A stretch of DNA of 64,000 nucleotides, from contig OX485808.1 of NCBI GenBank assembly GCA_950295325.1, positions 19,984,527 through 20,048,526 of the forward strand, given 5' to 3'. The translations under genes were made by a program, and so were the position numbers. The DNA is from Polytrichum commune. Taxonomy: Eukaryota; Streptophyta; Polytrichopsida; Polytrichales; Polytrichaceae. This document shows positions 1,491-13,008 of the stretch, piece by piece (positions within the stretch are counted from its first letter, which is position 1; every line of letters starts with the position of its first letter). The notes below the pieces were generated by a model. It was not told where the DNA came from. It saw nothing but the letters and a program-made list of their open reading frames with translations, and made no database searches.

Positions 1491-3260
1491 AAGGGCTCTC
1501 CTCCACTTGGATGGGGCATGGAATTTCCATGGAGAATTTATCCAAATGGGTTAGTAGTACTAACAAGAGCCTGCCAGATGCACCTAATAGGCTTGAAGGA
1601 GAGCATCATATTGAGGCTGCCAGGGTGAGATGGTAAAAGGCGAGGTCGACCCAGCAGGCGCCGGGGAGAGGGGGGGGAGAGGGGGGGAGAGAGAGAGAGA
1701 GAAAGCAAGCAAGCAGGCAGGGAGACTCGCATGGGGACGAAGGCAGCCATTGATGAGAGTAGTCCGCGGGTCGTGGTAAAAGCAAGGCGAGCTCGGACCA
1801 CTCCATTCACTAATGATGGCGGCATGAACACGGATTGCATTCGTCGCCGGACCAGGATTTTGAACATCCCTCACATTTTCGCTGCAGGCCTGCTGCAGTT
1901 GCTGCTGCTGCAGCAGCGGCGTGCTTACCTTATTACTTTACTTTACTTACGTCCTGCTCCGCTCTGCTCTTCTGCCACTAATACTGCGCGACCTGCTATT
2001 TCGCCTCGTTTTTGCGTCTCGTGACGTGATCAGCAGCTGCTGCTGCTGCTCCGGCCAGTTGTTTTTTTTACTCCCTCCCTCACCCCGGTCAAAGAGTTTT
2101 TACAATGTGATGAGATGATCGGGGGAAGATGGATGCAGGCGGGCAGGTAGGCAGCGGACAGGGGGGCTGTTGGCAGGCTGCTGCATGCTGCGAGGAACGC
2201 TGATTCTGACAGTGGTTTGACGAGCTGATGAGTGGTGGCGAGAGGTGATGAGTAGTGCTGTGAGAGCTCAAGGTTTGATGCTCATGCTCATGCTGCTACT
2301 ACTGCTACTGCAGGCGCGGGAGGCTGGTGTGGTCGGAAGCTGAGGGAGAGAGCCGGAGAGGGAGGGAGGGAGGGAGGGAGGGGGGGAAGGAGAGGGAGGG
2401 AGGGAGGGAGAGGGAGGGAGAGGGAGGGAGAGGGAGGGAGGTATCGATATCGCTGCCTTCTGCAGTGGTCTTGGTTTATGTTTTGGTTCGCTGGTCGGTC
2501 GTTCGTTGGTTCGTTCTGTAAGCGCTTGCTTTATGGCAGAGGGTGGGGGAGGGAGCAGGAGAGTGGGGTGGTTGTGGAGTGAGTTAGCGGAGGGAGGGAG
2601 TGGCTCATGCTCGGCTGATGTATGGAGAGAGAGTTAGTTAGAGAGTGAGTACAGTGGGAGAGGGAGAGAGAGGAAGGGAGAGGAAGGGAGAGGAAGGGAG
2701 GGTTGTACGTGCGGAGAGGGAAGGGAAAGGCAAGGGGGAAGGGGTTTGACGGGAGGGCGAAAAGGGGGGGGGGGGAGGTCGGATCGGTGTGGCGTGGAGC
2801 CTCGGGATGGAGGGGGTTGGATTCGTGGGCACAACTGCTGCTGCGAGGTTTGATTGCTGATGCTCAGTGGTGCTGCTACGTGGTTAGGTTGCGCCGGTGG
2901 TGGTTAGAGTGGGAGAGAGGCGAGTCGGTGTTTGCAGCGTACTACAGCCAGCAGGCCGCGGCCTGCTGGAGAGGTATGGTTAGAAGAGCTGGAGGAGGGG
3001 CTGCTGCCGCGCCTTGCATGCGCTTCTGCAGGTGGTGTACTTGTGACATCTTCGATACCGGTGTGTGTGTGTATGTCGACTGTCGAGTGTAGGAGAAGGA
3101 GAAGGGAGGCTTGCGGAGGAGAGTGTGTACTTACCTGGAGTGAGAGAAGGTAGCCAACTAACGAAGCGTGAGCTGTTCTTACCACAAGGAGGAGAGAGAT
3201 TTGTAGAGAGAGAGAGAGACATTGAGACTGCGATGATGCCATGGCACTCGAGAGAGGTTT
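1491..3260 (+). promoter_or_regulatory. Purine-rich putative promoter / distal 5' leader of the SBP-box gene
   Basis: This stretch is markedly richer in G and C than its surroundings and holds repeated purine arrays: GGGGAGA/GA runs (1664-1703), GGGA runs (2355-2441), GGAAGGGAGA runs (2655-2701), a G13 run (2765-2777) and a GA array (3198-3221). GA/CT arrays are a common feature of plant core promoters and 5' leaders, and in plants are bound by BPC/GAGA-binding proteins. The region lies on the same strand as, and upstream of, the SBP gene at 8374, but the transcription start cannot be located from sequence alone. A promoter role is inference. No supportable coding frame is present; the reading frames seen are low-complexity. 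Confidence 0.4.
2355..2441 (+). repeat. (GGGA)n/(GAGGGA)n array with G-quadruplex potential
   Basis: The array contains many G3 tracts separated by single A or AGA loops. Four consecutive G3 tracts with one-base loops meet the usual G-quadruplex sequence rule several times over on the plus strand. It lies within the presumed promoter/leader of the SBP gene. Confidence 0.85.
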
Positions 3261-6200
3261 GCTAGCGAGTCGTTTGGACTTCCTCCTTGTTGTAGGTAGG
3301 TTTGCTTGACGTCCTAAGGATTTGCTTGCTATTCCTTCCGTCCATGGAGGCCTGATTTTGTAGTTAAGGTTAGTGATTGTGCTGTGGAGTGCTTTTGTTT
3401 GAGGCCACCAGTTGAAGCGATGTAGTTTAGGCTAAGAGAGAGGAAGCGGAGCACTTCACAGGCTTGCTAGGACGTCGATAGATAGATACCTCGGGTGAAA
3501 AAAAACCTCATGACGCCCGTCGGCTGATGAAAACGAGAGCCTGGAAGTGCAGCCTTTCGTAAGCCGCAGCTGCTGGTCGTCAGCTAGGACGTCGGTTAGT
3601 GACGACGACCGGACTTTTATTTTTGAAGGCCTGCAGTTTCATACTGGAGGCGGCACGTAACCTCTACATTGCTGTCCGATACTGTTGCAGCAGTGAAGTC
3701 CACATAGTCAAGGTTAATGCAGAAAAGGGAAGGTCCGAAGGCGTGAGGCTAACCGACCTGTGCGAATTATACAGGAACTGAAGTACAAGTGCTCTTCAGT
3801 TGGCAGACAAAGAGTTCCTTTGCGTTCAATGTCAGTGGCTTAACATGAACCAGTGAGGACTGACGGTCAGGTCTTTTATACAAGGTTACGTCTGCCGTGA
3901 CCGGAAAAGTCGAACACAAAGAGTAGGACAGTGCGCGGGGCTTGTAATGGATCGGATATGTGTGCTTTTTGTATGGAGATTAGATTTCGAAGTGCGAAGT
4001 GTAGGGGCCTTGCATAAGAGTTTAAGGGGAAAATGAGCATAACATTCATAGCTCCTGTCGGGAGGACTAGGAGGGTTGAGAAGGATTTTTAGAGGTCTCT
4101 CGCATGTCTGGAACTTGCTGAAACATAAAACTCCATGATGATTCCTCTAATTGCTATATCTCAGGTGAGAAGATTGGAAATATACTGTATGCACAATTTT
4201 GAAGAGCTTAGGACAGAAGCCACTCCCGCGGGTTGGAAGGGCGAAAAGCTTGAAAACAGAAAGGTCTGTGAAGGACATCATTAAAGTACTCATACTTGAG
4301 AAAGAGTAGACCACTCAAAGAGGTTTGAACGGTGCGATGTGCAGTAGTACCACGTTCTGCCGTATTCTGGTTAGGAGTTACGTTTGCAGTCAACTATATA
4401 CTGGAGCCGCAGCAAAGAAAGATATACAGGTTGAGACTAAGAATAACACTCAGACTAAAGCGTTGGATCATGTGTGTTGCAATAGGTTGTGTGAGGGGGG
4501 CGAATTGAAGGACTTCCTACTAGGTGCCAATAAGAAGAAGAAGACGTGGCAGGTTTACATGAACAAACAAAGCAGTCGGGAACCTTTTTGGTCTGCCGAT
4601 TCGTTGTGGCGACTGTTATGCGGAAATAGCGGGAAAGTCTCGAAAGGACACTGTTGGTCCTCGCAGAGGTCCGAAGGCGCTGCCTAAACGCACTCAATAC
4701 GTCTAGAAGTCTGTGCGTCTGGTTGAAGCTGAGAAGTGACTCAACCTTTTTGCTGGTGCCGCGAGCTAGTAGTGAGCAGTCTGAGGAGAACTGCTTGAAG
4801 AGCTGGTCCAGGAGCGAAGATCAAGGGTGGAGTCGGTGGTGTGTGGAAAAAGCAAGAACAACAAATATAGCCATGCATCACTGAATCGGAGGAAGCTGGA
4901 CGGGAAACGACAGCATATTTAAGCACGACAAAAGTTGCGATCGAAGATGATGACGTCTGGCAGGTATGGAAATATCGTTGCCATGGATGTGCTTGTTGTA
5001 TACGCCTGGGATGAGAAAGCCTTCAAGGATGACAATGACACACATCCGGTTGTAATTGGGGGAGTTAATCAAAAGCCGCCTGCTGCAACGCTTGTGAGCT
5101 GCCTGCTTTGATGTGATGAGTTCCTTCATGAGGAAACTGCTAACGGCAACCAGTCTCTGGGACAAATTTATTGTTCTGGAGTTCGATTTTCAGGTTCGTG
5201 AAGGAGATGGACTCACATAATACTTTCCATCACTAGGCAAACAGTTCGGAAAAGACGGCTAGCGTCTTAGAAGGAACTGATATCACTTCTTCCAGTGGAG
5301 CACAAATGAAGGAAGGTAAATCTGGGACAGGTTTGGCAGACGACGACGTTTGGTGGTGCGACAAGGGGAAGGGCGGAGCAAGCTGCTAGGGATATGAGTT
5401 TACCGACATTTCTGATAGAGGACCAGGAGTCCATAAAGGCAGATAACAAACTCTTATCATCCCATTCTCCCATCACTTGACCTCAATGCGCCACACGACC
5501 TGCTGCATGAGTACTGTATTTTGATTCGTAGTGCCGATGTCTCTGCGTAGACTTGCTGCACGTTGAGGACACCTCCGCCACGTCCTCTAGCTCCAGCCAC
5601 GTCAAGCTAAAGGCCTCATCAGTATCATGCAGCTGGAAGGGTTTTCCGCGGTGAGGGGCCGGAGCAGCCATCGTTCTTTTTAGGTATGAAATTCGGAATC
5701 ATTTTGCTGCCCTTGTAAAAGAATGAACAAGATTTCATTCCTTGCGTTTACAGATGCCGAAAGTGTCACACGTCTAATCAATTGTCTTGGCACTGATCAC
5801 GGCTTTCGAAGGAATCGCTTCACTGTGCGGGTCTGCAGTGCAGTTCCTTTGCCTCGACATACAAGGCTCAGAATATGTCAAAGAACTCTTCTTAACATTA
5901 AAAAAACAAAAGCAAAACATGTGCATACTAATTGACCCAGAGAAGCGTCTCGATTAAGACCATGAGGAATATCAAGGAGGCCATGTCCCCAAAACTTTCA
6001 GCCGTTGTTCACTAGTCTGTAGCATAGAATTCTAGGACACGTTTGTTCAGAAATTATTTCTGCAAACTAATTATCTAGCGACAGTATCAGGAGAACGGGC
6101 TCACATTCACGTTGGTGCAAGAACACCAATGCTTCTTTTCTTCTCTTTCTTCCTTCTCTAACAACCGACCAATCCTCGAGACCTTCCATGTTTGTTATGG

Positions 6201-8268
6201 CTTACTACTTCAGTTAGCCATTCAAGTGAAAGTGTCATTATCAATGGTCATGTGGACAGGATGATATGGCTTGCCATGAAATCGCTGATTTGAACATACA
6301 CATAGATCCCCCTTGTCCTAAATCACGCAGACGTTCATTTGCATACACATGGAAGAATCTGGAGTTCACCGAAAATTGCTGCAGAGATTTCCCAGACACA
6401 GTCGGAAATTGCATCTTCTTGCAAAGTTTTTGTTCCATATTGTGTCATTAACAACGAGCTTTGCTCCAAGTTGTCGATCCAGAGCCAGGTACATGACCAG
6501 CACATCCTTAATGTATTGTCCCCGTAATATGTTTTGTAGTTTAGGTTTTACGTGACCTGCAGGTCTAATAACCCAGTCTGAAGAGCTTACATCTATAGGA
6601 AATGTCCACGCCGGCTTTAGGTAGCATCCTAAGTTGTATTCAGTAGCAACTGCTTAAGTGAAAATTTACCAATAACATATAAAGAAGATTTCACCGAGCG
6701 CTACACAGGCTTTGACGTCTGGAAATGTAATGCGAGGACGTTCTGGACGTTTTGGTGGAAGTTAGGTCTTTGTGGTTGTCCAGTTAGTTCCACAACTAAG
6801 TAGCCTCAATATCCATAATCATTTTCATTTCCATATGCAGAGAACATTTTTCAAACGTGGGCCAATAATGTATGTGGCGTCATTGATTCTTAAGATCATT
6901 CAGTGGAACCTTCATGTAGTCTATATCGTCTTCGATCGGCTACCTATATTAGTGCTTGTTGTCACCATACACCTGAAGTAGGATGTGATTGAAGTCAAAA
7001 TTATATCCTGAAATCGAGTGTCTTACTCCTAGCTCACCGTCATATGGGCTTCTTTGGAGAGGTGACGCCTTCCATTCACAGCTATTTTGGCCTTCACTTC
7101 GATCTCTATTGTGGTTGATTTTGATGTCTTGAATGCAGTCAATGATTTTGGTTGCGCTCTTTCATATGTACTCACGCAGTTCCTTCGTCACAGAATGGTC
7201 TAGGATAACCTCAAGCTAATATGAGCAATTGTGGTCTGTAGGATCATTCCTCTTGGTTCGGAAGTGGTTGTTCTTATCGAACATGTTGACGGAAGCCATA
7301 CAACAGCCAGCTAGATCTTTTGGCTCATGACTGTGACGGGACTTACAAATGCAACTCAACGTAAATTTCTTTCTTAGTGAAATAAGCAAGCCCTTTCTGG
7401 TGGCTGGCCATCTCTTCCTCCTTCATCTCCTTATTATCCTTTCGCTTCCACCCGCCCAGCCTAACTCACTCCAAACTCCTTTTTGCAGCACTCTTAGAAG
7501 TAGGTAGTCCACAATGCATAAATACCTCGACACGTCTGCGAAGCCTAATGTAAGCAACATGTGTCCTAAATAGAAAAGGCCCGTCTATGGACAGAGTGAG
7601 AGCCCATTGCTGGAGGTTCATCATTCCGGAGGACTCCCGCAGTACTCTGTGGGCTACCGCTTTCGTGACTCGACATTGTTCACAGTAAAATCCTGTCCCT
7701 GCGAAAACTGTTGTTGTTTAAATCCAGAAACCTGAGGCTAGATGAGCGCTAGCTTGCTGGAGGCACCTACAAGTTCATATACCTTTTCTGCTCAATAACT
7801 GCGGGACTTGCTTGTATCATTCTTAGCTTTCTGCGTTTTCACGTCTAGTGTAGGCAAGGTGTATGCTCAGGGCCTCGTAAATCGGTACAGAAGCTACAGC
7901 CTGTGGCCTGCAGGTGTATACACATGAACCTCGAGATCTCATGAACGCCAGCGAACGGTTTATTGACTCTTCTTCCTGGCAACAAGAAGTTTAGGGTCTA
8001 ATCTATTCGAGGAAGAGAGGATGTTCGAACATTGATCATACAACACTCAGCTGCCAGTGGCTCTGTACTTGAAGTTTAGCTTGTGGTGATCTGCCTCAGC
8101 TTGAGCTGAGTCGAAGTGTACTACCTGCCTGTAGCATAAATCACCACATAAACGCCAGTTTAGTACACCTTTGCAGCCTCCTCGTCACCTGGTGCAAGGA
8201 ATCACTATCCGCAGCAGTGTCGCTTCATGAGCAAGCGACTTAAATACTATTTCATATTTTTATTATAG
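3261..8268 (+). other. Unassigned region upstream of the first supported SBP exon
   Basis: No open frame here has domain-like content or chains to the SBP exons. Because the first supported exon starts at a splice acceptor ('TTTTTATTATAG', AG at 8267-8268), at least one earlier exon must lie upstream, and this region probably contains it together with an intron. Plausible donors include CAG|GTATGG (exon end 4963) and CAG|GTACAT (exon end 6488), but nothing in the sequence chooses between them. Base composition from about 3300 to 5700 is still less AT-rich than the flanking intergenic DNA, as expected of transcribed leader. Assignment is inference. Confidence 0.35.
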
Positions 8269-8373
8269 ATTGTCTGTACCTGGCGTGTTCTCTCTCTCTG
8301 TCAGTCAAGATTGTCATCCAGCTGTGTCGATAATCAAGACCTGACCCCATACACCATTTCCCTGGTGTATGGG
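8269..8373 (+). promoter_or_regulatory. Leader part of SBP exon 1: hairpin and two-codon uORF at the start codon
   Basis: The exon begins after the acceptor AG at 8267-8268. Its only ATGs before the coding region are at 8369 and then 8374, the chosen start. The 8369 ATG opens a two-codon reading frame, ATG GGA TGA, whose stop overlaps the main ATG as ATGA. Bases 8346-8356 and 8363-8373 are perfectly complementary (11 bp, 6-base loop TTTCCC), so a hairpin ends exactly one base before the start codon and contains the uORF ATG. The exon is also open in the main frame from 8269, so an upstream coding exon remains possible. Confidence 0.6.
8285..8303 (+). promoter_or_regulatory. Decayed miR156-like pyrimidine site (doubtful)
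   Basis: The sequence GTGTTCTCTCTCTCTGTCA is nearly the canonical miR156 target of SPL genes, GTGCTCTCTCTCTTCTGTCA. It differs by one C-to-T change (a G:U wobble in the duplex) and by lack of one T, which would bulge the miRNA near position 8. It lies in the leader, whereas known SPL sites lie in the last coding exon or the 3' UTR. A bulge there should weaken or abolish slicing. It may be a decayed or relocated site, or a chance CT array. Confidence 0.25.
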
Positions 8374-11300
8374 ATGAACCCTTCTGCAAATAACAACGAG
8401 CAGCAAGGTGAACCCAGCTGGGCAACAGAGAATTGGGACAGCCCAGGTGCGGTTGGCAGCCTCGATCACCCTTCACGCCAGTACTCAGGTCCTAGCCGCC
8501 TGGAGTGGGAGTGGGATCCGATGATTCTTGCACAGCACCCTGGCAGTGGAGCCTCAAATGACGGCGGTGACGGGGACCGAATGAACAACCAGATATCTGC
8601 AGGTAAATAGAGGTGGCAATTATTTCTATCAATTTTTATCCGGATAGCAATATTTCTTAAGTAGTTCCAGGGTCGGTCAACAGTCGGTCAACAGTTTGTG
8701 TTGGAACCAGCATTTGGGGATTTTCCATATTTTCACAAAGATACTTTTTCTGTGACTATTGGAACTTGAACGCTTTTCAGGACATATGTGTGCATGTGAC
8801 AATTTGGCACTGTCTGCAGTTGAAGGTAGAATCTGTTGTAGAGTATTATATGTACATTTGTCAAGTTATAATCGTTTTACAATGTAGAACATGATTACAG
8901 TGCATTTGGTAGACATGTAGAGAACTTGTCTGTACAAGTTGAAATATCACATGGACTAGATTGCTGATTGGTAACGCTGACTATTTCTACGCGGATGATA
9001 TCATGGGTTACAGGAACAATGTCAACCATACGACAATCTTATAATATGCTGTCAGCAGGCCTACCATCCAACTTTACACACAACAACCCTATGGGAAACA
9101 TTTTCAGCTCCGCAGGAATCCGAAACTTCGGACCTATGGACGGATCTGGCCAGCTTCCATCATCATCGAACCTTCATGGTGTACTTGGATCTGGAATTCC
9201 CGGCCTTGCAGCTACAAGTGGTACTGCAGGTCTTGATACCGACATTCGCAACTTTGATCACCAGCGGCGACGCGAATTGTTTGCAGCAGGCATGCATGAT
9301 CATCATGTCAAGAGAGAGGAGGTAGAGCACCATAACCTATTCTGATTTGACCTAGTACCTTTTTTCTAATGAATTTGATGATTTCACTCCTCATTCGGTT
9401 TTTATTTTTTATTTTTTATTTTTTTATCATCATAGATGACGTTGGTTGTATTGTTTTAAGAGACTAGGTAAAACTGGTTCTGTGATAACTGTCAGGAGCA
9501 TTCACAGAGGGCAATTCATGGAAGCAATCCAGGTTTCTTAAAGTAGACGTCATTTAATGGATCTATCGTAGGAACAATCTATATTCTTGGCAGAAAGGAA
9601 GCTTCTCTGAAACTTTAAAGGAAAGCTGCAGCAACATGTCTTGAAAAAACCATTGTCATAGATTCCTTGATATTTTTATCACATAGCTACCATTGAATCA
9701 TGGCCAGCAAGTCCTATTGGATAACTTGTACGCAGTCCAATTTGGAAAAGTGAAACTCAATGGCACTACGGTTTTGTGCTTGTACACTAATTACAGATGA
9801 TATCGGATGTGAAAGTTTCTGCAAATTTCAGATTGTTTCTAGGAGCTTTTTGTGAAGGAACTCATGAAGGCTTCATTGGTTTATTTATCTTGGACAGATC
9901 AGTGATGGGCATACTCGAATAGGGCTCAATCTTGGTGTGCGAACCTACTTCTCCACAGAAGATACAGCCGCAGGTCGACTTGTAAAGAGACACCGTGCAG
10001 GTTCACCTGGGTCCCAAGTTCCCATGTGTCAGGCAGAGGGCTGCAAAGCTGATCTGAGCACAGCTAAGACATATCACCGCCGGCACAAGGTCTGTGAGCT
10101 TCACTCAAAAGCACCAAACTTGACTGTTGCTGGGCACACTCAGCGCTTTTGTCAGCAATGCAGCAGGTAATTACGTTGTCAAAAGCAAGAGGTCGTACTT
10201 CTGCCAGGCCCATTTTAATGTTTTAGGTTAAGTCGTATCTTAGTTTTTGAGTACATCTGTCACACTTTAAGTAAGAAATGTATATTATTTCTGTCACAAA
10301 AGCCTTTAAATGCCCCATGTGTGTCATGAATTATAAAATTGTTGTGGTCTTGAATGCACAGGTTCCATTTATTAGGTGAATTCGATGATGGAAAGCGAAG
10401 CTGTCGCAAGCGCCTGGCAGACCACAACAGGCGCCGTCGAAAACCGCAGGCCAATGCTTCTCAACCTGGTGGACCATCAGCCGAGTCCATTGGCATGAAA
10501 AGCGGTGATGATGACCGTGCCAATGGTATGTGGCCGACACTTCCTAGCTCATCAGGTTACCATCTGTTCTTGTACCATACCCCTTGATCGCCATTTTTTT
10601 TTTTTCCCCCCTTAGACAGATCCCTTGATGTTTATTGCAAGTATTTATTGTGCATTACTTACTGCCATTGTTTGCCATGCACTTCTCCATAGTAACGCAG
10701 TATCAGTCTGCCTCTACCTTTTTAGTGTGTAAATGAATGCTCAAATCATTCAAATACTTTTCTTCTGCTTTCTGTATAGAGCTCAAGCTTGTTGCACTTG
10801 AACCAGTTTCCTTTTGTAGTTACACAATTAGCATCAGTCTCTTTCCCAGCTTTTGAATCTCCTACTTATCATCTGTACATACGAACTTCCTCCTTTCATG
10901 TCTGTTGTTTCTCTTCCTCTTAGCAAGTATCTAAGTTACTTTACATTCATTATAGTGAAGCAGCATATTGTATATCAGTTGAATAATAATGTCAGCTGCC
11001 CATTTTCTTTAGTAACATCATGGACTGGACTGATTTTTAGTTTGTAATTGGGGTATGTCTTTACATTCTACAAGAACGATCACTGCACTAAATATGTTAT
11101 CTAGTGTCACCAAGTCTAATTGCCTTGCTTAATACTAATTGCAAACCGCTGTGTCGTGTCACGAACACTAAATGTTAACCCAACATTATTTGTCGTTGTA
11201 AATATTTTGAATAATTATAAATTTACAGTGTTGCAATTATTGTCGCTTTCCAAGTAATTTTTCATCCAAATTTCAATCATCCATGACAATATTTCATCAC

Positions 11301-13008
11301 AAGTTGCTGACAAGAGAAGGTGGGGTTTTGGCCAATGGATGAACTCATCCATCATCCATGACAATATTTGTTCACTTATTCATAAGAAGTGTCATCTGAA
11401 AAGTTACCAAAATACCATATCACACTAAGTATCATATTTAGTGTAGTATTCTTTGATATTGGTACAGTCTCTCAGAATCTTTAGCATAATAGCGGATATT
11501 TATTTGCCCTTCTACTGGTGACCTTGTCTGAGCTTACTCTTGTTGCCACTGATGAATGCAGATCAAAAACCAATGCTCCTGAACTTGAAGAAGTCTGGGT
11601 CACCAAGCTCAGTTTCCCTAGAAGACTCTGATGAAAAGCCTGGCTCTGCAGGCAACAACCTGCAATTGCGAACTTCTGGTCCTGGATTCAGGAGAGGTCC
11701 TGGAGATGAGCAGCGTTCATTGCACTCTGGGATGCAAATGAGCTCTCAGCCTATGACAGGCTCAGATGCACAAGCTTTGCTCTCTGCCATGTCCCTCTCC
11801 CCAAGTCTCATGCTTCAAAATCCACAGCGCCAGCTCACAATGATGGCAGGAACGGGAAATCATGGTCAAGACCATGCAGCAGTATATCAGCACTATTTGC
11901 AGGTACTCAAGTTTTCAGTTGTTTGTTTCAAACTTATGATTACGTCCAGTACATGTCTACCAAAAATGTGATCCTTCTGCTGGCAATGCTAGGGACTATA
12001 AGATAGTACCGGATTAGCTCTTATGATTTGATACAAGCTGTCTTAGCCAGCCAGCCACAACCTTGTCAAGAATGGTATCTTCTCATTGACGATGACGCAT
12101 CATACAATTTGAGATTGAGGAGCAGGTGAACATTTGTCTATGAAAGTCTTAAGGATGAATCATGGATGCAGGGAGTGCATCCAGGCCAGACTGGGCCGAA
12201 CCTTTCTCTCTCGTCCTTAGGGGGCCAATTGGGACTAAGTCATCAAGCTGGAGGTCGAGGCCAGCCAGTCTCTAATCAGATTCTCAATGGGATGGACTCA
12301 GCCGTTTCATGGTTGCGATCAGACCTTACCCAAGTAGTTGGCAGGTCAGGGGCCATGAATCTTCAGCATCTCATGCATTCCACCGACTCAAAATCTGGCA
12401 TCACTTCAGCGTCAGCAAACTCGCCCAACTCTCAGGTGATTGATCTTACAGAGAAGTCTTAAACAGAAACAAATTAGTTGTGCCTTCTCACTATTTTCTG
12501 CTGTGAAGATATGCAGCTCCTTCTGACTAACTGCACATACCCATTGCAGGAACACGATGTTCAGGTGTTCTCTCCGTCGAACCAGAATTTGATTCCTCTT
12601 CAGTCATCACGTGATATAGCCAGCCCAGAGTGGATGCTTGGCAGCATGACAGGAGGACAGACTCCACGTGCTGGGTCAAATCACTTTGGGCCGTCCTCCT
12701 CTCTGAATAACATAACTCCAAGTAGCGAGTTGGAATCTGGCCATCAAATGCTAGCTCTGATTGAGACCTCCAACCAGGCGGGGGGGAATCCTGGCAATGG
12801 CGGAAGTAACCAAAACGGACAGGGCGGACACGCACAGATAGAGCTCATGCAGCAGCATAACACAGGGACTGATTCAGGGGGAGATAACAACAGTCGTGGC
12901 GGTGGTAGTACAGTGGATAGCCCTGATCTGAAGTACCCTGAGCTCCAGGCTCCGAGACATAATTATGGGCCATCATCCATCTATGAGTCGCACCACAATC
13001 TTTTGTAA
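8374..13008 (+). CDS. SPL: SBP-box (SQUAMOSA promoter-binding protein-like) transcription factor, 7 coding exons
   Basis: Sequence-specific nuclear DNA-binding protein; the family binds GTAC-core sites and controls phase change and organ development. Coding exons are 8374-8602, 9014-9321, 9898-10166, 10362-10525, 11562-11902, 12172-12435 and 12550-13008. All introns are GT-AG, phases chain without a break, and the product is 677 residues. The SBP domain spans about residues 222-297. Zinc site 1 is C223, C228, C245, H248; zinc site 2 is C264, C267, H271, C283; the overlapping bipartite nuclear signal runs from KRSCRKR to RRRRK (280-296). The intron inside the codon after QQCS is the conserved SBP-box intron. 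The segment [13 protein letters not shown] (186-198) and HSKA in the box resemble the SPL8 group. The flanks are Ser/Gln/Gly-rich and disordered-looking, and the end is [11 protein letters not shown]. The start is the first in-frame ATG of its exon; an upstream coding exon cannot be excluded. SBP assignment is very secure, the SPL8-group placement moderate. Confidence 0.93.
9322..9897 (+). other. SBP intron 2 with T-rich tract
   Basis: The donor GAG|GTAGAG and acceptor TTGGACAG both fall between complete codons. The 576-base intron has a T-rich stretch at about 9398-9428 ('TTTTTATTTTTTATTTTTTA'). If it were retained, translation would stop after seven further codons (VEHHNLF). Confidence 0.75.
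11086..11444. mobile_element. MITE-like element inside SBP intron 4
   Basis: The left end is CACTAAATATGTTATCTAGT. The right end, read on the minus strand, is CACTAAATATGATACTTAGT. Both match the ends of the separate element at 15596-15814. The 359-base interval lies within the 1,036-base intron 4 (10526-11561), the longest intron of the gene. The interior shows no coding sequence. Direct target duplications are not convincing, so the boundaries are approximate. Confidence 0.5.

Follow-up and report, generated by a model that had tools for sequence, protein, structure and literature searches.

An SBP gene with two sister copies

The window analysed here, a 64,000-nucleotide stretch of a Polytrichum commune contig (OX485808.1), carries on its forward strand a gene of seven coding exons, with GT-AG borders at all six introns between them (Table 1). 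A Pfam scan of the first 437 residues of the encoded protein found the SBP domain PF03110 at E 2.9e-32, and seven SPL sequences in the PDB matched the protein, the best at E 1.3e-33; the identification of the gene as an SBP factor by the first-pass annotation is thus borne out. In the 408 Mb assembly that holds the window (G000), a Pfam search returned 16 exon matches, from which we count eight SBP loci. A search of the same genome with the DNA of positions 8140-8602 returned the window gene and two further places, a tandem copy (85%) and the C5 copy (78%). The tandem copy lies about 18 kb upstream of the window gene (L020; G000:C6:19970000-19979500), and its reading frame is intact. Because dS is 0.505 between the window and tandem copies (all exons) and 0.715 between the window and C5 copies (exons 1-3), the trio are duplicates old enough for testing conservation. 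All comparisons of the leader given below are among these three paralogues within one genome.

SPL8/LG1-like (clade III) SPL proteins typically carry [LI]GLNLG on the N-terminal side of the SBP domain and no ALSLLS. Of the eight SBP loci as fetched, the three that have the motif are those of the trio, and the miR156-site peptide ALSLLS occurs at one other locus (L022). We tentatively place the window gene among the SPL8/LG1-like SBP genes, as one of three copies in the genome.

Exon 1 (8374-8602) changes slowly at silent positions: its window-tandem pS is 0.121 versus 0.281-0.519 in the other six exons, and its window-C5 pS is 0.324 versus 0.469 and 0.556 in the other exons compared. The dS of exon 1 alone is 0.132 for the first pair and 0.424 for the second. 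This low divergence could reflect constraint on the RNA, conversion between the gene copies or a low rate of mutation. Since the slow exon stands beside the leader, claims of conservation for single leader bases are weakened, those for the miRNA site included.

Elsewhere in the window, at 2779-5411, three long pieces are 82-86% similar to L022:1457-4122, which lies ahead of another SBP gene some 230 kb away, as would be seen after an old duplication or with a dispersed repeat.

Table 1. Features of the SBP gene and its leader (window positions)
Feature	Position	Strand	Details
Upstream ATG	7514..7516	+	A at -3; end of predicted leader exon 1
Predicted leader intron	7550..8268	+	GTAAGC ... TATAG; splicing predicted
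Leader exon 2	8269..8373	+	probably 5' untranslated, judged from identity and non-triplet indels
16-nt block TGGCGTGTTCTCTCTC	8281..8296	+	identical in 3/3 copies
miR535-like target site (predicted)	8283..8303	+	miRNA complementarity
Perfect 11-bp hairpin	8346..8373	+	loop 8357-8362, TTTCCC
Two-codon uORF	8369..8377	+	ATG GGA TGA (ATGGGATGA); stop overlaps main start 8374
SBP gene	8374..13008	+	7 coding exons, 677 aa plus stop
SBP coding exons	8374-8602, 9014-9321, 9898-10166, 10362-10525, 11562-11902, 12172-12435, 12550-13008	+	frame open throughout

The leader of the SBP gene

Immediately upstream of the start codon the window and tandem copies are 92.4% identical (97 of 105 aligned positions over 8269-8373), and over 7550-8268 they are 72.8% identical (497/683). 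We predict that the latter segment is an intron of a transcribed leader. Its donor aligns in both copies (GTAAGC in the window, GTGAGC in the tandem copy), and both have TAG at the acceptor, position 8268 of the window. The homology of the C5 leader with that of the window begins at 8271, with 79 of 104 positions identical over 8269-8373. Two observations count against the intron, namely that the presumed end of leader exon 1 (7450-7549) is 67% identical between window and tandem copies (65/97), and that an AG is missing from C5 at the place matching 8268. Further upstream, 7319-7500 is well conserved with the tandem copy and weakly with C5 (7381-7472, 70%); this segment possibly holds the core promoter plus the beginning of leader exon 1.

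The first-pass annotation had assumed that 8269-8373 is an untranslated leader, and so it appears. Compared with the window, the tandem leader has three single-base insertions, and the frame upstream of its SBP start contains a stop. In C5 no stop interrupts this frame within the 113 bases compared, and indels in the leader break any codon alignment with the window. On the evidence of the tandem stop and of indels that are not triplets, and with the open frame of C5 taken into account, it is unlikely that 8269-8373 was ancestrally N-terminal coding sequence. Translation from an upstream exon, which the annotation had named as evidence against its own reading, is possible in the window copy: the predicted splice 7549/8269 puts the ATG at 7514 in frame with the SBP gene and would add 47 residues (M-H-K-Y...). 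Because the tandem copy is without this ATG, has the stop and carries the single-base insertions, the extension is probably not ancestral. As a window-specific form, it might let ribosomes skip the uORF.

The hairpin is intact in the window copy only

The annotation had drawn attention to a perfect hairpin of 11-base arms that ends one base before the ATG at 8374, and the sequence confirms it: CCCATACACCA (8346-8356) and TGGTGTATGGG (8363-8373) are exact complements. The stem is calculated at -19.4 kcal/mol (z -4.82), a stability reached by none of 200 shuffles, and it forms alone in its context. The window contains one perfect hairpin with an arm of at least 11 and a loop of 3-12, versus 0.175 expected from 200 dinucleotide shuffles; 34 of the shuffles contained at least one, and three did so when at least 6 of the 11 bases had to be G/C. 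These chance figures are optimistic, since the shuffles under-predict shorter hairpins here: those with an arm of at least 9 number 12 against 3.09 expected, and are thus about four times commoner. No perfect hairpin with an arm of at least 11 was found in 63,528 bases from other loci of the same genome. As a sequence, the 11-bp hairpin is moderately unusual and was picked after the fact. A repeated or mobile origin of the arm was rejected, as its one further near match in the window (1 mismatch) is within chance.

The stem is perfect in one of the three copies. In the tandem copy it has eight Watson-Crick pairs, two G:U pairs and one mismatch (10 of 11 pairs kept), with a fold of -10.2 kcal/mol that 22 of 200 shuffles equal; in C5 it has six Watson-Crick pairs, three G:U pairs and two mismatches (9 of 11 kept), and the best fold, which includes the nine stem pairs, is at -9.3 kcal/mol, with 88 of 200 shuffles as stable. 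When longer stretches are folded, the start region of the tandem copy folds differently and the weak stem of C5 forms at about half probability. When the arms were altered at random, with the number and kind of changes matched, as many pairs were kept with P 0.57 for the tandem copy and 0.25 for C5. Compensatory evolution of the stem was rejected for these two paralogues, where changes affect single sides and kept pairs are not in excess. At position 8352 both sisters have T, and the window base appears to be derived towards perfect pairing. As far as the three copies can tell, the stem shows no sign of selection. With respect to the original finding, the main value of the analysis is negative, in that neither sister gene has preserved the striking hairpin intact.

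The two-codon uORF is shared by the three copies

The letters of the uORF at 8369-8377, and the overlap of its stop with the main ATG, are as the annotation gave them. The string ATGGGATGA stands at the start codon in all three copies of the trio and is absent, on the gene strand, from the five other SBP loci as fetched. Conservation of the uORF is suggestive, resting as it does on five uORF-specific bases compared among three paralogues of one genome. The last 12 bases of the leader are identical between the window and C5 copies. Position -3 is U for the uORF start and G for the main AUG, so leaky scanning should deliver most ribosomes to the SBP reading frame; the likely effect of the uORF would be a small constant tax.

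The proposal that translational control is locked onto the start codon has accordingly fared unevenly. Its uORF is kept in three of three copies, and its stem is perfect in one, with pairs retained as under random change. Among relatives, here paralogues, the loss of the stem that would speak against the proposal is partly seen, and loss of the uORF is not.

A conserved miR535-like site in the leader

The 17-mer TTGGCGTGTTCTCTCTC has exact genome-wide matches in the two sister leaders only; allowing 1 mismatch adds the window copy and 6 further places, against 4 for the reversed control. The leader reads GCGTGTTCTCTCTC, then three or four variable bases, then GTCA, which is most of a miR535 site. 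Of the 21 positions of the site, the three copies share 18, made up of 14 nt and the GTCA. In the window, miRNA nt 8-21 would pair with 8283-8296 (one G:U) and nt 1-5 with 8299-8303, leaving nt 6-7 unpaired.

Sites were scored with the usual plant weights against miR535 TGACAACGAGAGAGAGCACGC (PMC4368373, Table 1), and a fern miR535 variant was used as a second query (PMC5426797). The scores with TGACAACGAGAGAGAGCACGC were 4.5 for the window, 4.5 for C5 and 6.5 for the tandem copy, and shuffled miRNAs did as well in 0 of 300, 0 of 300 and 3 of 300 cases, respectively. The fern variant scored 5.5 on the window, 2.5 on C5 and 6.5 on the tandem copy; among 606 other 105-nt pieces taken from the + strand of the window, the best score was 7.0. 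The complementarity thus exceeds that of the controls. Near-perfect pairing that includes miRNA nt 2-13 was not found in any copy of the trio; the defects are mismatches at nt 6-7 in the window, mismatches at nt 5 and 7 in C5 and a bulge in the tandem copy. Plants usually need miRNA nt 5-7 to be paired, and it is exactly opposite these nucleotides that the three copies differ. Since pairing fails there, the site is a putative one.

For miR156, the tandem leader scored 3.5, which none of 300 shuffles equalled; on the window and C5 leaders 63 and 92 of 300 shuffles were as good when target bulges only were allowed. With a bulge in the miRNA allowed, miR156 scored 5.5 on the window and 7.5 on C5, the best background piece being 8.5. 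The canonical miR156 site GTGCTCTCTCTCTTCTGTCA was rejected as a candidate, having no match within 3 mismatches in the window. In the tandem leader (L020) miR156, at 3.5, fits better than miR535, at 6.5, as if the site were switching miRNA.

Two stretches of the leader can pair with the coding sequence and might hide the miR535-like site, 8278-8301 with 8425-8448 (71% over 24 nt) and 8280-8287 with 8474-8481 (8/8). Such long-range pairing as a feature beyond the window copy was rejected, as the best folds of both sister leaders differ.

miRNA genes and other miR535-like sites in the genome

The mature miR535 sequence, searched genome-wide with up to 2 mismatches, occurs at one place, where it is exact (reversed control, 0). 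The precursor at this locus matches the Rfam MIR535 family RF00714 with 84.5 bits against a cut-off of 64, and a family search, in which 52 of 27,504 first-look candidates were scored, put no further locus above this cut-off. At two loci that contain miR156 without mismatch, the sequence folds as a long, MIR156-like hairpin. Rfam calls neither of them, and one match was also obtained with the reversed miR156 pattern when 1 mismatch was permitted.

The perfect miR535 site, with up to 3 mismatches, matches MIR535 and 11 other places in the genome (reversed control, 0 on either strand). The window and C5 SBP leaders account for two of the 11; the tandem leader, which needs a bulge, is not among them. 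The other nine, when scored against the SBP leaders, are better in six cases (2.0 to 4.0), equal in one and worse in two. No place in the genome differs from the perfect site by 1 or 2 mismatches, and hence no near-perfect partner of miR535 was found. The best weighted scores belong to L044:1501-1521 (2.0) and L040:1501-1521 (2.5), neither of which is covered by a frame of at least 80 aa. Another non-SBP place, L047, has no Pfam match when its + strand is translated with stops as X, and its long frame is on the other strand. Among the remaining SBP genes, the fourth, L022, has a canonical coding miR156 site and served as a positive control; L023-L026 have no ungapped site at a score of 5 or below on the gene strand.

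Discussion

We consider that the best-conserved element of the leader is the putative miR156/miR535-family site at 8283-8303, and that it may be the control point, an explanation to which we give slightly less than even weight. A miR535-like site in this role is more likely than the hairpin. In this scheme miR535, or perhaps miR156 in the case of the tandem copy, would pair with the leader through nt 8-21 plus nt 1-4 or 1-5 and would lower SBP output through slicing or blocked scanning. The uORF, in its weak context, would capture a small share of the scanning ribosomes, and most would leak to the main AUG 5 nt downstream. The perfect hairpin would be peculiar to the window copy, with a modest braking effect at the very most.

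It is also possible, if somewhat unlikely, that the hairpin and uORF are incidental, and that the leader and exon 1 change slowly for another reason, such as gene conversion between the tandem copies, splicing signals or a low mutation rate at the 5' end. The low synonymous divergence of exon 1 in both comparisons and the small number of uORF-specific bases would agree with this. The match of the leader block to miR535, however, would be left without an explanation.

We think it unlikely that 8281-8303 is a decayed miR156/535 site, which worked in an ancestor and is now functionless. The defects around miRNA nt 5-8 differ from copy to copy, which would agree with decay, but 18 of 21 positions have stayed unchanged in all copies despite the dS values of 0.505 and 0.715, an objection that is itself weakened by the lower dS of exon 1 alone.

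The reading offered by the first-pass annotation was that the hairpin and the two-codon uORF form a built-in translational switch, in which ribosomes have to melt the stem and leak past the uORF. It draws on a stable stem that abuts the AUG, on a uORF present in every copy, on the 12 final leader bases common to the window and C5, and on the weaker stem that can form in both sisters. We nevertheless find it decidedly improbable: the stem is perfect in one copy, the folds of the sisters are unremarkable against shuffles, pairs are retained as by random change, and the tandem start region adopts another fold when longer stretches are considered. Moreover, the main AUG has G at -3, which would be enough to favour retention of part of ATGGG, and initiation at ATG 7514 offers a possible bypass.

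CT repeats are common near plant transcription start sites and C5 has no splice acceptor at the matching place, yet it is very improbable that the CT-rich block is a core-promoter pyrimidine patch with transcription starting downstream, as the match to miR535 extends to the flanks GCGTG and GTCA outside the CT stretch, matches are rare among shuffled miRNAs of similar composition, and a splice-site-like boundary at 8268/8269 is present in two copies.

Several known systems resemble parts of this leader. Close-spaced AUG pairs and AUGA start-stop overlaps are known from viral RNAs; here, likewise, the AUGs are 5 nt apart and a stop lies over the next start, although coupling between them is not in evidence. 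The combination of an upstream AUG with an RNA hairpin recalls the uAUG-ds start-codon selection of Arabidopsis TBF1 and other genes, in which use of the uAUG is promoted by a hairpin located downstream of it (PMC10499604). The geometry is different here, since the uAUG is inside the 3' arm of the hairpin.

For the miR535-like site, the closest precedent in pairing is Arabidopsis miR398-BCBP, in which a site in the 5' UTR is sliced despite disturbed pairing opposite the 5' region of the miRNA, a case called rather unique by the paper that describes it (PMC4005643). The BCBP site has a six-base bulge and is experimentally proven, whereas the leader site has an internal loop of two to three bases and is predicted; on this analogy, it is plausible that miR535 acts through such a loop. 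If so, it would add to the 5'-leader sites that function in spite of poor pairing with the 5' end of the miRNA.

The analysed gene and its genome resemble the miR156/529/535-SPL module of land plants in having an SBP gene with a superfamily-like site, together with a MIR535 gene and MIR156-like hairpins. They differ from it in that the site is in the 5' leader of a presumably SPL8/LG1-like gene, rather than being the coding ALSLLS site, and is imperfect at miRNA nt 5-7. Of the 13 SPL genes of Physcomitrium, three are given as proven miR156 targets (PMC10721683). A small-RNA study of Physcomitrella lists miR535 as one of its five most abundant miRNAs (PMC4957126). The literature searched, which covers the field in part, yielded no named moss target of miR535, and no naming of a moss SPL8-like gene as such. 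A functional leader site would give this abundant miRNA a target. By extension, the true target of miR535 in mosses may be the 5' leader of an SPL8/LG1-like gene, recognized via a conserved non-canonical site (nt 8-21 and 1-4); this leader would join a conserved start-stop uORF, placed at the main AUG, to miRNA control, and the tandem copy, since its duplication, would be drifting from miR535 to miR156. We regard this wider proposal as rather unlikely.

A second bryophyte parallel is the Marchantia pair of Mpo-MR-13 (miR11671) and MpSPL1, again a miRNA with a clade III SPL gene, as is predicted here. The nearest Arabidopsis relative of MpSPL1 is reported to be AtSPL8, and Mpo-MR-13 to be possibly liverwort-specific (PMC10721683). 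The candidate miRNA of the present leader differs in being the widely conserved miR535. If the leader site is functional, a moss SPL8-like gene would be under a conserved miRNA, in parallel to the action of MR-13 on MpSPL1 in a liverwort.
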